NCBI RefSeq assembly: GCF_000328525.1
Contig: NC_019964.1
Coordinates: 930,001 to 994,000 of the forward strand
Length of the DNA: 64,000 nt
DNA from: Halovivax ruber XH-70
Lineage (GTDB): Archaea > Halobacteriota > Halobacteria > Halobacteriales > Natrialbaceae
Direction: 5' to 3'
Shown piece by piece: positions 8,002 to 62,367 of this stretch (the first letter of the stretch is position 1; each line of letters begins with the position of its first letter). Both the position numbers and the translations under genes were made by a program. Below the pieces are notes generated by a model, which made no database searches, was not told the DNA's origin, and worked only from the letters and a program-made list of their open reading frames with translations.

Positions 8002-8931
8002 TTAGATAGGTACTTGGTCAGCGAATTCATCAATTATGTCCGTTACAATATCTACAACCGCTTCCCCCGTACACTGGCCCACATTGAAACAGCCGATATC
8101 TGCCAAAATAGTTGCAACCGGTACGGCAGGAAATCCGAGGCACACTAGGAAGGCACAAGCGACAAAAACCGGTGGTGCACTTACAGTGAGGCCACAGGGT
8201 ACGCATCCGACTGCTTCAACGATACAAAAGATAATGTCATCTTGATCACAAGATGATTGCACCCCCGTGCCGTTCGAACTACCTGAGAAGTGAGTAGTTT
8301 CACGGTCGGTTATCTCTAATCCAGATTTAGCGGCAGCCAATCCCTTCTGTTTCGTTGCAAGCTGTGCCTTAGCAGGTTCCGCTTGGACGCGGTCAAATCG
8401 ACGATTTTCGGTGTCGATATGGCTAATCGAAACCTTTCCAGTCTCCGGTTGAACGGCTACAGTTGTGTTCCCTCGATCCAACGCTCTTGTATCAATGGAG
8501 TTGAGGAATACCTCAGTCTCTTCATCGGTTGCAGTCCGCGTCAGAACCGTTTTATCGTCCGTTACCCTCAACTGTGCTTGAGTTCCTTCAACCCAGTCAT
8601 CGTCCACGCCGGGAACCCAGTTGTTGAAATAGAATCTTGCGGCATCTGTCTCTTCTGGTGGGCGGGTAAGAACTGTACCGTGATTTGCAGGAATAACGAC
8701 AACGCTTCGATCTCCCCCAACCACACGGGCGCTCTCTGCACTTAATTTAAGACTCGGTACCTCTCTTTTGAGTCTTTTTATATGTTGTGATTGTAGCAAC
8801 TGATCAATATCAACGGATGCCTCTTTTGGAGATGCACCGACTGCGGCAGTCATTCCAATGAGTGATGCCCCACCAGAGGCCGCAATATTCCTTAGAACTT
8901 TTCGTCGATGTGGGTTGTTGTTTCCTCCCAT
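8002..8931 (-). CDS. Tat-exported halocin C8-like precursor (8-Cys hydrophobic C-terminus)
   Basis: A 309-aa protein. A Tat signal is visible at the N-terminus (RRKVLRNIAASGG, hydrophobic to about residue 33). The middle 180 residues are polar. From residue 228 a hydrophobic C-terminal domain carries eight cysteines (228, 236, 243, 246, 259, 264, 281, 287), including the CVPCG pair. This plan (Tat signal, large pro-domain, about 80-residue Cys-rich hydrophobic C-terminus) matches the precursor of halocin C8, where the C-terminus is released as the antimicrobial peptide and the pro-part gives immunity. Halocin C8 itself has ten cysteines, so the peptide would differ. The gene is AT-rich and lies between two IS6 remnants. 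Activity is not shown. Confidence 0.7.
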   Translation of the reverse strand: MGGNNNPHRRKVLRNIAASGGASLIGMTAAVGASPKEASVDIDQLLQSQHIKRLKREVPSLKLSAESARVVGGDRSVVVIPANHGTVLTRPPEETDAARFYFNNWVPGVDDDWVEGTQAQLRVTDDKTVLTRTATDEETEVFLNSIDTRALDRGNTTVAVQPETGKVSISHIDTENRRFDRVQAEPAKAQLATKQKGLAAAKSGLEITDRETTHFSGSSNGTGVQSSCDQDDIIFCIVEAVGCVPCGLTVSAPPVFVACAFLVCLGFPAVPVATILADIGCFNVGQCTGEAVVDIVTDIIDEFADQVPI

Positions 8932-9782: not shown

Positions 9783-9795
9783 TAATTATATTATG
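9783..9795 (+). promoter_or_regulatory. TATA box of RNA/zinc-finger cassette A
   Basis: TAATTATATTATG is a strong TATA region in otherwise GC-rich DNA. It predicts transcription starting near 9814, just ahead of the first stem of the RNA element at 9817. The equivalent box in cassette B (62358-62367) has the same spacing to its own first stem. Confidence 0.6.
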
Positions 9796-9813: not shown

Positions 9814-9966
9814 AACGGAAGCCACGCTCTCCATCACCTGCGCGGGGACATGCGTCTCAGAAATGTCCCGGGTGCTACTACCACCCGAGACGTGGTTTCC
9901 GAAAACCCTGCGGGGTTTTCAGTCACCATGATACGAAACTCACCATCGAGACAAAAAGGTCTCGCA
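9814..9966 (+). ncRNA. Candidate structured RNA element, copy A
   Basis: Four stems can form. P1 pairs 9817-9826 with 9891-9900 (ten pairs, one G-U) and encloses P2, 9869-9874 with 9882-9887. P3 pairs 9901-9908 with 9913-9920 around a TGCG loop and abuts P1. P4 pairs 9947-9952 with 9959-9964 around AAAAAG. The second copy at 62207-62337 forms the same four stems, and changes in P1 and P3 preserve pairing. It may be a structured mRNA leader or a separate small RNA; no T-rich terminator follows, which favours a leader for the downstream genes. I do not know an Rfam family for it. Confidence 0.65.
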
Positions 9967-10068
9967 CAGCAGTGGCATCGACAGCCGAAGCGCTACCCCG
10001 AATTCGTCTGGGATTCGAAACTCGGCGGGGATCTGCTTCTCAGCCTCGGCAATCTGAAGGTGAATTGA
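9928..10068 (+). CDS. Small basic ORF coupled to zinc-finger gene, copy A (46 aa)
   Basis: The frame starts at an ATG just after stem P3, begins MIRNSPSRQKGLA and is rich in Arg, Lys and Gln. It ends one base before the zinc-finger ATG. In cassette B the same frame begins MFRNTPSRQKGLA and its stop overlaps the next ATG. Of the first 13 residues 11 are identical, and the nucleotide differences there are partly silent. It may be a leader peptide that couples translation, or a real small protein. P4 lies within its first codons, so part of the conservation may be structural. Confidence 0.45.
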   Translation: MIRNSPSRQKGLAQQWHRQPKRYPEFVWDSKLGGDLLLSLGNLKVN

Positions 10069-10069
10069 G

Positions 10070-10297
10070 ATGGGTCGCTACGAGTACGACGAGCCGTTGC
10101 CGGATGAGCCGTGCGAGCGCTGTCGCACCGATCTGACGGAGACGCACTGGGCCAAACTCCGGGCTGTCCACGACGGGCCATCCGCCAGCGGGTATCGAGA
10201 TTCGGAGAAGCGGGTTTGCGTGGATTGTCTCGCGGCGCTCGGGATGCTGGAGTTCGAGATGAACGGTGCAGCTGGGGGTGGACAGAGATCGGTGTGA
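10070..10297 (+). CDS. Small zinc-finger protein, cassette A
   Basis: A 75-aa protein with two Cys pairs, CERC at 15-18 and CVDC at 50-53, giving Cx2C-x31-Cx2C, almost certainly one zinc site. The protein at 61860-62096 has the same spacing and similar flanks (CYRC... and CCPDCAAAMNLSEF against CVDCLAALGMLEFE). A purine-rich GAAGGTGA lies 7-14 bases before the ATG, a usable ribosome site, consistent with translation from a leader. Such haloarchaeal micro-proteins are mostly uncharacterised; RNA or protein binding is plausible. Confidence 0.7.
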   Translation: MGRYEYDEPLPDEPCERCRTDLTETHWAKLRAVHDGPSASGYRDSEKRVCVDCLAALGMLEFEMNGAAGGGQRSV

Positions 10298-10561: not shown

Positions 10562-11602
10562 CTACTGGACTATTGTTACTCTGGTCTCCAAATTAGAATC
10601 CTCTTCGCTAAGACTCATTTTGAATTCCGGGGCATTTTCGATCCTCCTTTCTGGATCGTATATGAATATTAATAGCTTCTCACAGCTGGAGTCCTTTCGA
10701 TACAACTCTTTATCTTCAGCCAAGGCTATCCGTATCGACTCCATTGTCCTATTTTCAGAGGGCCGCTTAACCTCAATTCCAATACCGTACTCCTCTAGGA
10801 GGAAATCAATACGGGGATTCTTTCCCGCATGCCGTTTGAAGTACTCTTCGGCCCTAACATCATCGAAGTATAGCTTCAGAAGGCCATGTAGTAAGTATTG
10901 AACATCGTATTCATCCTGCATTGAGACTGGATCCCTTTCTCGACTCCGGTTTTGTAGTGGTGTTGCAATTTGGTCAAATCTCTCAAAAAGAAATTCCACT
11001 TTATCCACTGCTGAGCGCTGAATTGCTGTAGGATCATCTTGGTCTGCCCAATCGACTTCTTGGGAATATTCAGTTTTAAGGAAATCTACAAAGGTGTAGT
11101 ATAGTTCAATGAGATTGTTGTGATTCTCCATTTGGCCTTCCGAAATTTTGTCAGATGGTGGAATTCTAAATTTCCAATCCCTACCTTCTGACGGCCAAAA
11201 ATCAAAATAAAATTCTCCAATGGTCATTCCAAGAGATTCAAAACCATAATTCGAGGATTGTTCTCTTTCTGATTGAAATGATGTGCTCACTTTCTCCTTC
11301 TCAGAGAAGGTTCCGTCGAAGGAAGTAAGTTCCTTTGAAAAAATCGGCTTTGATTTAGATTCAAGGAACTCAAATAGTACCTCCACAAGCCCCTCAAAAT
11401 CATCATAGTTTATATTGTCCATTTCGAGGGTTTTAGAAGATATTTCCTTTGGTTCTTGGCTACTTCCTTTCAAAACAGCTACTGTCTTTTTGAAGCGCAA
11501 GTAAACCCCGTCACCTATATCTTCTATTGCGACCTCCACGACTATTGACTGATTAGGGTCAGGATTAGACGTATAATCGATTGAAGAAATGTACTGGCGC
11601 AT
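10562..11602 (-). CDS. Solitary PD-(D/E)XK nuclease, DpnII/MboI-type domain
   Basis: A 346-aa AT-rich gene. The C-terminal 120 residues carry the DpnII/MboI restriction-nuclease pattern: YDVQYLLHGLLKLYFDDVR, then RIDFLLEEYGIGIEVKR with Asp266 and the Glu277-x-Lys279 of the PD-(D/E)XK centre, then KLLIFIYDPERRIENA. The N-terminal 200 residues form an unidentified domain. No methyltransferase is adjacent, so it is not an ordinary restriction-modification pair. It could be an orphan defence nuclease. The ATG at 11602 was chosen; the open frame runs to 11674 without supporting features. Confidence 0.7.
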   Translation of the reverse strand: MRQYISSIDYTSNPDPNQSIVVEVAIEDIGDGVYLRFKKTVAVLKGSSQEPKEISSKTLEMDNINYDDFEGLVEVLFEFLESKSKPIFSKELTSFDGTFSEKEKVSTSFQSEREQSSNYGFESLGMTIGEFYFDFWPSEGRDWKFRIPPSDKISEGQMENHNNLIELYYTFVDFLKTEYSQEVDWADQDDPTAIQRSAVDKVEFLFERFDQIATPLQNRSRERDPVSMQDEYDVQYLLHGLLKLYFDDVRAEEYFKRHAGKNPRIDFLLEEYGIGIEVKRPSENRTMESIRIALAEDKELYRKDSSCEKLLIFIYDPERRIENAPEFKMSLSEEDSNLETRVTIVQ

Positions 11603-12033
11603 TACACCACAGTTGGGGAGCAGGAATATCAATGTTTTTTGAAGGTGCAGAGCTATCCCACTGGAAATAATCATAGTATTCGATAATTTCGCGCCCCTTT
11701 CGAACCTGCGGGGACGTGGTGCGACCCCTTTTTCTGCTGGGGCGGCCAGCGGCGCGGCGGTTAGTTTGGGACCTTGGCCGTAGCCACACGCTGTGCTGTA
11801 GGTTCACGGCCCATTCCAGTCCTTTCCAAAAGTCCACCGTCTCTCCTGAGCTTTCCCTGCTGTCTACTATAGATCCGCAACAACATCCAGACACCCGCGC
11901 CACCTCCAACATTCATCCCTCAAACCTGTAGCGAAAACAATTATAATGGGCTAAATTAAATATGTGGGCATCGATGGCTTTTAGGAACTCTCCCCTTCCC
12001 AAAATCCGCACTGTCCCCGCGGAGGGCAGATAG
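11603..12033. other. Non-coding stretch between nuclease and toxin genes
   Basis: Composition changes from AT-rich to GC-rich here. AAACAATTATAATGGGCTAAATTAAATATG (described by position, 11935-11963) is a double TATA-like patch, probably the promoter of the toxin gene at 12034. A reverse frame at 11565-11912 is Arg/Ser-rich and not protein-like. I see no RNA gene or mobile element in it. Confidence 0.4.
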
Positions 12034-60307: not shown

Positions 60308-60392
60308 GCGAGGGTAGCCAAGCAAGGCCAACGGCGGTGGGCTTAAGACCCGCTCCCGTAGGGGTCCTTGGGTTCAAATCCCAACCCTCGCA
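60308..60392 (+). tRNA. tRNA-Leu (anticodon TAA)
   Basis: GCGAGGG pairs with CCCTCGC as acceptor stem; the anticodon arm is GTGGG-CTTAAGA-CCCGC (anticodon TAA), followed by a long variable arm and T arm GGTTCAAATCC. A class II tRNA of 85 nt for codon UUA. Its 3' end is repeated at 60493-60516. Confidence 0.95.
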
Positions 60393-61859: not shown

Positions 61860-62096
61860 CTAACCCCGACGAGCGTGTGCTTTCAATCGCTCCGAGAACT
61901 CGGAGAGGTTCATCGCGGCGGCACAGTCCGGACAACAGAACCGCTCCGCGGTCTGGTAGTCGTGTGAGAGCGCGGCCGGCGGCTCGGAGACGAGCCGAAA
62001 GAGCCGCGCCGGTGCCACGTCCCGATCACACCGATAGCACTCCTGATCGTGAGCCGTATCGCCGGTCCCGTCACGCTCTCGCTCGACGGATTTCAT
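61860..62096 (-). CDS. Small zinc-finger protein, cassette B
   Basis: A 78-aa protein with CYRC at 20-23 and CPDC at 55-58 (Cys54 also present), giving the same Cx2C-x31-Cx2C spacing as cassette A. It starts at ATG 62096 (GAGGTG lies about six bases upstream); the same frame is open to 62150. Its ATG overlaps the stop of the small upstream reading frame (62093-62245). It is rich in Arg and Glu. Confidence 0.7.
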   Translation of the reverse strand: MKSVERERDGTGDTAHDQECYRCDRDVAPARLFRLVSEPPAALSHDYQTAERFCCPDCAAAMNLSEFSERLKAHARRG

Positions 62097-62245
62097 CCGA
62101 GCACCTCGCAGTTCTGTCGGTCGAACTGCTCGAAGCGACTCGGCCCCCAATCCCGGAAAACGAAGCTTCGAGACGGGTAGCGATACGACTCTCTAGGCAA
62201 CGGCCGTGCGAGACCTTTTTGTCTCGATGGTGTGTTGCGGAACAT
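62093..62245 (-). CDS. Small basic ORF coupled to zinc-finger gene, copy B (50 aa)
   Basis: The frame begins MFRNTPSRQKGLA, is rich in Arg and Ser, and ends with a TGA that overlaps the zinc-finger ATG (ATGA). It corresponds to 9928-10068 in cassette A. Conservation fades after about 25 residues but RYP and FV elements persist. Evidence for a real peptide is the shared start, shared first residues and shared coupling; P4 of the RNA lies in the same codons. Confidence 0.45.
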   Translation of the reverse strand: MFRNTPSRQKGLARPLPRESYRYPSRSFVFRDWGPSRFEQFDRQNCEVLG

Positions 62246-62337
62246 GGCTGACAAAATCCCGTGAAGGATTTGGAAGCCACGTCTCGGGTGCTCTAACACC
62301 CGGGGCACTTTCGTACCCGTGCGGACGCGGCTTCCGT
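62207..62337 (-). ncRNA. Candidate structured RNA element, copy B
   Basis: On the minus strand P1 pairs 62335-62324 with 62283-62272 (12 pairs, one G-U), enclosing P2 62302-62297 with 62290-62285. P3, 62271-62266 with 62259-62254, begins directly after P1 as in copy A. P4 is 62226-62221 with 62214-62209 (the same CGAGAC/GTCTCG). Relative to copy A, G-U/G-C and A-U/G-U changes in P1 and an A-U to U-A flip in P3 keep pairing. Confidence 0.65.
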
Positions 62338-62357: not shown

Positions 62358-62367
62358 ATAATATAGC
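62358..62367 (-). promoter_or_regulatory. TATA box of RNA/zinc-finger cassette B
   Basis: CTATATTATC on the minus strand predicts a start near 62337, at the first base of P1. Cassette A has the same geometry. Confidence 0.6.

Follow-up and report, generated by a model that had tools for sequence, protein, structure and literature searches.

A short conserved frame in Halovivax ruber is probably the translated part of a haloarchaeal leader RNA with a start-codon switch

The window analysed here is a 64,000-nucleotide (nt) stretch of Halovivax ruber XH-70 (NC_019964.1, positions 930,001 to 994,000), which carries two cassettes, A and B, each with a short open reading frame (ORF1) followed by the ORF of a small zinc-finger protein (ORF2). 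An earlier note on this DNA had proposed that ORF1 is translationally coupled to ORF2 and is either an attenuator-like leader peptide, with Arg/Gln/Lys codons in a hairpin (P4) as a sensor, or a true partner of the zinc-finger protein. We favor another explanation, with a probability of roughly 0.7, in which ORF1 forms the translated 5′ end of a leader RNA that acts in cis, has a start-codon switch, and is coupled to ORF2. Transcription would start at or near the first base of stem P1, and the 5′ domain of the RNA (P1, P2 with a GAAA loop, and P3) would adopt two exclusive folds. In the predicted ON fold the P1 3′ strand pairs with the P1 5′ strand and the ORF1 start codon is free; ribosomes would translate ORF1 through P4, terminate on the ORF2 start and reinitiate, giving a zinc-ribbon protein, or a HalOD1-like protein in some copies. 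In the predicted OFF fold the P1 3′ strand pairs with a segment around the ORF1 AUG that repeats the P1 5′ strand, which would hide the start and switch off both ORFs. The ORF1 peptide itself would be mostly a by-product.

Both cassettes contain the small frame and the zinc-finger ORF where the earlier note had placed them (Table 1), and 11 of the first 13 residues are indeed identical (MIRNSPSRQKGLA and MFRNTPSRQKGLA). The frame does start soon after a hairpin, the one at 9901-9920 in cassette A ending 7 nt before the ATG. The A junction reads TGAGATG and is not an overlap, with a single spacer base (G 10069) before the zinc-finger ATG at 10070; in B the ORF1 stop and the zinc-finger start (62096) share ATGA. 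We assembled 155 distinct cassettes from all sources, leaving out eight loci without a match to the regular expression, and in 152 of them the ATG and a Lys or Arg at codon 10 are present at identical spacing, with no length variation between them.

On this comparison the conserved N-terminus of ORF1 reflects an RNA hairpin, P4, encoded by residues 7-14. Among 169 distinct copies, the P4 pair between nt 21 and nt 34 is A-U in 72 and G-C in 68, and codons 8 and 12 are exchanged jointly, Arg/Leu in 71 and Gly/Pro in 68, such that the base pair is kept. Over the six P4 pairs, 99 cells changed on both sides, compared with a shuffled mean of 20.8 (0/500 shuffles). Codons 7-14 are nearly unchanged even synonymously, with a proportion of synonymous differences (pS) of 0.042 vs 0.273 in the tail, which points to a constraint on the RNA.

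These same codons bear on the attenuator proposal, in which stalling at the Arg, Gln, and Lys codons of P4 controls downstream expression. Attenuators of the trp/his type combine a short leader ORF with alternative RNA structures, as do the cassettes, which also have the hairpin within the ORF and a nearly invariant Lys codon 10 (AAA in 166/169 copies). That codon is, however, the only fixed one among the supposed sensors: codon 8 is Arg, Gly, or Asp, codon 9 Gln, Tyr, His, or Leu, and codon 11 Gly, Arg, or His, and codon 12 varies too, with the Arg-or-Gly choice at codon 8 and the Leu-or-Pro choice at codon 12 following the P4 pair. Unlike the trp/his systems, the cassettes have no conserved regulatory codons, their alternative pairing reaches the start codon, and the downstream genes are not biosynthetic. 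An Arg/Gln/Lys sensor is ruled out by the variable codons and amino-acid attenuation is extremely improbable; what survives of the proposal is a short leader ORF that is probably coupled to the zinc-finger gene.

Beyond codon 14 the peptide appears to matter little. The ratio of nonsynonymous to synonymous differences (pN/pS) of this tail is 0.80 (0.71-0.92), close to the 1.01 and 0.90 of the wrong frames, whereas ORF2 has 0.38 in frame and 1.39 and 1.65 in the wrong frames; tail indels show no bias towards multiples of three (29, 28, 23, counts that depend on the alignment). Because the tail is near neutral and its indels are without phase bias, we conclude that an open tail and the position of its stop are kept while the residues are nearly free. 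The kept feature, as read from these comparisons, is an open frame that ends on the start of the next gene, as for termination-reinitiation. That ORF1 is instead a functional small protein partnering the zinc-finger protein in a two-gene module is improbable. Such a module would agree with the retention of the frame in 152/155 copies, with a pN/pS of 0.42 over codons 2-6, and with the RESYRYPS shared by B-type copies beyond P4, but the near-neutral tail argues against it, as do the exchange of R/L for G/P in the conserved core along with the RNA pair, an ORF1 length of 28-208 amino acids across copies, and the unrelated first ORFs that follow the leader in other families. The earlier note had named copies with a broken frame and intact stems as a refutation, and some exist: the start is lost in L049 (AAG) and L254 (ACG), L021 has ORF1 fused to ORF2, and no such frame is present in the viral contig L198 or in other families. 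Within Natrialbaceae, on the other side, nearly all copies keep it.

The junction with ORF2 is consistent with coupling. ORF2 starts at −4, −1, +1, or +2 nt in 108 of 143 evaluable cassettes (96 with a 4-nt overlap, 12 others), compared with 476 of 2,321 small ORFs taken arbitrarily from these loci, and this is the stop/start proximity characteristic of a termination-reinitiation pair; the 143 exclude 12 of the 155 (three without a start, five with masked N, and four running off the locus). Overlapping pairs of this type were strictly coupled in 9/9 tests in Haloferax volcanii, in a study (PMC6728339) that like ours concerns AUGA overlaps in a haloarchaeon; those pairs are ordinary genes, however, whereas the cassettes have a structured, putative switch leader. 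The closest parallel to the whole arrangement is ppe2 of Mycobacterium tuberculosis, where a riboswitch-controlled upstream ORF (uORF) with AUGA reinitiation is established (PMC11260477). Both have a structured leader, a short translated uORF (putatively so in our case), and an AUGA overlap, and we liken ORF1 to the ppe2 uORF, a ribosome landing pad from which downstream translation proceeds mainly by termination-reinitiation. They differ in that the ppe2 leader is a bacterial B12 aptamer with a known ligand, whereas the haloarchaeal leader has another fold and 1-30 copies per genome, and that the start codon of the haloarchaeal uORF itself lies in the segment covarying with P1.

ORF2 codes for a CxxC protein in most cassettes and for a HalOD1-like protein in Halostagnicola copies, three of which were checked and gave sub-threshold HalOD1 Pfam E-values of 1.4e-5 to 2e-3. 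Rfam, Pfam, NCBIfam, and PDB sequence searches returned no useful family for ORF1 or the window ORF2s; ORF2 of A matches nothing in Pfam or NCBIfam up to E 1, and that of B has only weak, sub-threshold Pfam matches. In three loci (L155, L027, and L021) ORF1 is fused into a longer ORF whose first codons are those of ORF1; L021 joins ORF1 and ORF2 in frame, and L027 has one ORF of 147 codons behind the leader.

Upstream of ORF1 lies the structured domain. In 207 upstream sequences the positions −30 to −26 from the first P1 base are 99-100% A/T, a TATA-like block that places the expected start of the RNA at P1 or immediately beside it. In an alignment of the model-only copies plus 20 earlier loci (A6), 13 of 23 P1-P3 pairs covary, with 85 cells changed on both sides (0/500 shuffles), and with other families added (A7) this rises to 21 of 23 pairs and 137 cells (0/500 shuffles); first-look alignments A1-A3 misplaced P2 and are excluded from the counts. 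The sequence of the P3 stem, GGGUG/CACCC, hardly varies, and an AAA stretch is conserved just before the P2 3′ strand, which suggests a binding site. We note by eye a candidate H-type pseudoknot (CGC..GCG around the P2 5′ strand); copies with a short P2 are without it.

The expression signal that the RNA appears to control is the ORF1 start codon. Minimum-energy folds of single copies fall into two classes, one with P1 formed and the other with the P1 3′ strand paired with the start region, and the start region GAAGCCAUG repeats the P1 5′ strand GGAAGCCACG; in cassette A the alternative hairpin encloses the small hairpin at 9901-9920. When each fold is forced, the alternative minus P1 has a median of +0.7 kcal/mol (mean 0.79, standard deviation 3.65), and the alternative is better in 55/142. 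A helix of at least eight pairs containing the AUG forms in 66 of 109 distinct pairs, compared with 2.7% when those strands are set against 1,483 other start regions from these loci (the start-helix analyses use 124, 144, and 109 distinct rows, with differing admission rules). Shortening is concerted: all seven distinct copies with a shortened P1 3′ strand have a shortened start segment, vs 9/144 others (Fisher 3.7e-8). L211 and L223 have GGUUU in P1 and GAAACC before the AUG, a G-to-A change in both P1 and the start segment, and in the divergent set the own strands average −10.90 vs −10.13 when permuted (0/300). In 36 members from other families, the own duplex is −10.32 vs −7.36 permuted (standard deviation 0.38; 0/1000 permutations), or −10.20 vs −7.32 for 31 distinct combinations, although the best-duplex ATG was chosen where more than one was nearby, which slightly favors own pairing. 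There too the start region largely copies the P1 5′ strand, as in GGUCUUC/GAAGACC, GGUUGU/ACAACC, GGGUUC/GAACCC, and GGCUGU/GCAGCC. The leader thus combines a conserved, covarying structured domain with, on comparative evidence, an exclusive alternative fold that touches an expression signal; we regard it as a class of RNA that Rfam 15 does not contain and that probably functions in the manner of a translational riboswitch to which a uORF is coupled, its membership among the riboswitches being provisional.

Several observations weigh against this interpretation. ORF2 is not at −4 to +2 in 35 of 143 cassettes, 13 overlapping by 8-17 nt and 22 doing neither, and nine copies combine a full P1 strand with a shortened start segment. 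In the window itself P1 clearly wins, at −58.6 vs −54.4 kcal/mol in A and −60.4 vs −56.1 in B, and forced folds of the 36 other-family members also favor P1 by a median of 2.9 kcal/mol; eight of these 36 (L276, L296, L297, L299, L302, L309, L311, and L314) have only 3-4 contiguous alternative pairs. All energies are for standard conditions and not molar KCl. Because P1 is favored by about 4 kcal/mol in A and B we would expect ON to be the resting state there, with little confidence. The permutation and shuffle tests take copies as independent, with no relatedness correction, and A6 and A7 are fitted to the model. Part of the collection (L080-L197) was picked by a pattern in which P3 and a portion of P1 are held constant, and for this reason 70 further copies were taken by model only, with L222 dropped as a false match. 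The tail pN/pS lies slightly under the wrong-frame values, which would accommodate weak selection on the peptide. Finally, 48 of 125 Natrialbaceae genomes have no copy at the threshold of the leader model.

The leader extends well beyond the window. Among named records the nearest relatives are Halovivax, family Natrialbaceae. A BLAST search with cassette A finds 20 places in its own genome, A and B included, nearly all with the same layout: a TATA box, P1, P2, P3, a small hairpin, the ATG of a 44-50-codon frame, P4, and an ORF2 that encodes two CxxC pairs and has its start touching the ORF1 stop. A covariance model of the leader alone, built from 11 sequences (R1), finds 21 copies in the H. 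ruber genome, 24-32 in four further genomes from its genus, and matches in 77 of 125 Natrialbaceae genomes; a rebuilt, broader model (R2) reaches 160 of 391 Halobacteria genomes in 63 of 86 genera. Many copies lie in matching flanks between the H. ruber genome and Halovivax asiaticus loci, which rules out recent mobility of all copies. These distributions also speak to the proposal that the leader works as a trans-acting small RNA with passenger ORFs, or that the unit is simply a multiplying repeat. The 21-32 copies in five genomes of the genus and the copy on a viral contig are what it predicts, but it is very improbable given that many copies are stably inherited, that the start region covaries with P1 in cis, and that ORF2 is under purifying selection. 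Three genomes of one genus from another family (G261, G376, and G394) each carry 10 or more copies of a distinct leader version, a second multiplication; in the loci read, the ORFs that follow it are similar.

Among viruses the leader is scarce. Cassette A has no match in 50,697 phage records, the leader was not found in Halorubrum virus Humcor1, and searches of viral contigs gave one match (L198) and, with a second, stricter viral pattern, none; a phage-wide element is ruled out by this near-absence. In L198, an IMG/VR contig, the leader (8514-8577) sits directly on its own 154-codon gene, which matches phrog_27279 (E 4e-34) and has by eye a hairpin at the P4 position.

Outside Natrialbaceae, the weak R1 matches proved to be real members. 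Their first ORFs are unrelated in sequence to ORF1, with 81-302 codons in 21 of 36 and 33-71 codons in 15 of 36, and many overlap the next ORF by 4 nt. A leader placed on unrelated first ORFs is the strongest argument that the switch, and not the peptide, is conserved, and together with the near-neutral tail it makes a true partner protein, as the earlier note had envisaged, unlikely. The genes behind the leader include those for SWIM zinc-finger proteins, a TFIIB-repeat protein (L305), and an operon with a Csm3-like second gene (L272, E 1.4e-5), with similar ORFs seen by eye in L296, L302, and L310; an HmaC-like ATPase lies beside the leader in L296. Scans of the downstream proteins returned HalOD1, SWIM, TFIIB repeat, viral families of uncharacterised function, or nothing, and no ribosomal protein, the hallmark of a ribosomal-protein leader. 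In L296, L302, L310, and L272, a small zinc-binding or other short ORF and a Csm3-like RAMP protein follow the leader, possibly forming a defence module. Seven non-Natrialbaceae members (L275, L276, L298, L303, L304, L306, and L313) have a strong, sequence-variable palindrome between the TATA box and P1, within the 34 nt upstream of P1; scores of at least 8 occur in 7/35 non-Natrialbaceae members vs 0.3% of shuffles, and these palindromes look like private operators for different repressors.

The diversity of downstream genes also bears on what sets the balance between the folds. Autoregulation, with the zinc-ribbon product of ORF2 binding the leader of its own mRNA and thereby driving that leader into the OFF fold, would fit the small zinc ribbon encoded by most Natrialbaceae cassettes themselves and the almost invariant P3 stem, as expected of a protein site. 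It is nevertheless rather unlikely, as the leader also precedes HalOD1-like, SWIM, and TFIIB-repeat proteins, the Csm3-like operon, and others, and ORF2 sequences diverge while the leader stays conserved. Because unrelated ORFs share the leader, the start-codon switch probably responds to an effector common to all copies, a small ligand, an ion, or a host protein, and not to ORF2 itself. More tentatively, at somewhat less than even odds, we propose a Halobacteria-wide class of translational switch RNAs with one common effector, present on chromosomes, plasmids, a virus contig, and in defence-associated operons, which Natrialbaceae multiplied with a uORF to serve 20-30 zinc-ribbon genes and whose switch viruses copy.

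The leader is apparently not yet catalogued. Rfam 15 at gathering thresholds reports only a tRNA in the whole window, leaving the leader unmatched, and four loci searched at E up to 1 likewise give only a tRNA and no leader family. Among the titles and abstract openings returned by our searches of an open-access library none describes this leader, and the text of a large 2010 RNA-motif survey has no haloarchaeal term. Natural translational RNA switches are few in archaea, with one experimentally determined by 2021 according to a published report (PMC8241225). In the leader described here the target of the expression platform is apparently the start codon itself, an idea that the covariation opens to testing in organisms with tractable genetics. 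The leader also offers a way to approach the small zinc-ribbon genes, dozens per genome and unannotated, and the virus and defence genes that share it, and the cassettes would be a clear case of a conserved micro-peptide explained by RNA structure.

Table 1. Features of cassettes A and B in the window (window coordinates)
Feature	Position	Strand	Remarks
TATA box, cassette A	9787..9791	+	26-30 nt upstream of P1
Leader RNA domain, cassette A	9817..9900	+	Covariance model R1, 83.8 bits; covariation in A6, A7
P1, cassette A	9817-9826/9891-9900	+	
P2, cassette A	9845-9850/9864-9869	+	
P3, cassette A	9870-9874/9882-9886	+	
Putative alternative start-sequestering hairpin, cassette A	9891..9930	+	9891-9896 (CGUGGU) pairs with 9925-9930 (ACCAUG)
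ORF1, cassette A, 46 amino acids	9928..10068	+	ATG 9928, TGA 10066-10068
P4 hairpin inside ORF1, cassette A	9947..9964 (9947-9952/9959-9964)	+	
ORF2, cassette A, 75 amino acids, CxxC..CxxC protein	10070..10297	+	
TATA box, cassette B	62361..62365	-	Placed as in the family upstream profile
Leader RNA domain, cassette B	62272..62335	-	Short P2 form, GAAA loop; R1 45.5 bits
Putative alternative start-sequestering helix, cassette B	62241..62283	-	62283-62275 with 62249-62241, 9 pairs read from sequence
ORF1, cassette B, 50 amino acids	62093..62245	-	ATG 62245, stop ends 62093
P4 hairpin inside ORF1, cassette B	62209..62226	-	
ORF2, cassette B, 78 amino acids, CxxC..CxxC protein	61860..62096	-	Start within ATGA overlap

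Two further features of the window lie outside the cassettes. A tRNA-Leu (TAA) gene at 60308-60392 (+) is detected by ARAGORN and a permissive Rfam run but not by Rfam at gathering thresholds. A gene with a DpnII/MboI-type restriction-enzyme domain (Pfam PF18742, E 3.7e-38) lies a short way downstream of cassette A, at 10562-11674 (-).
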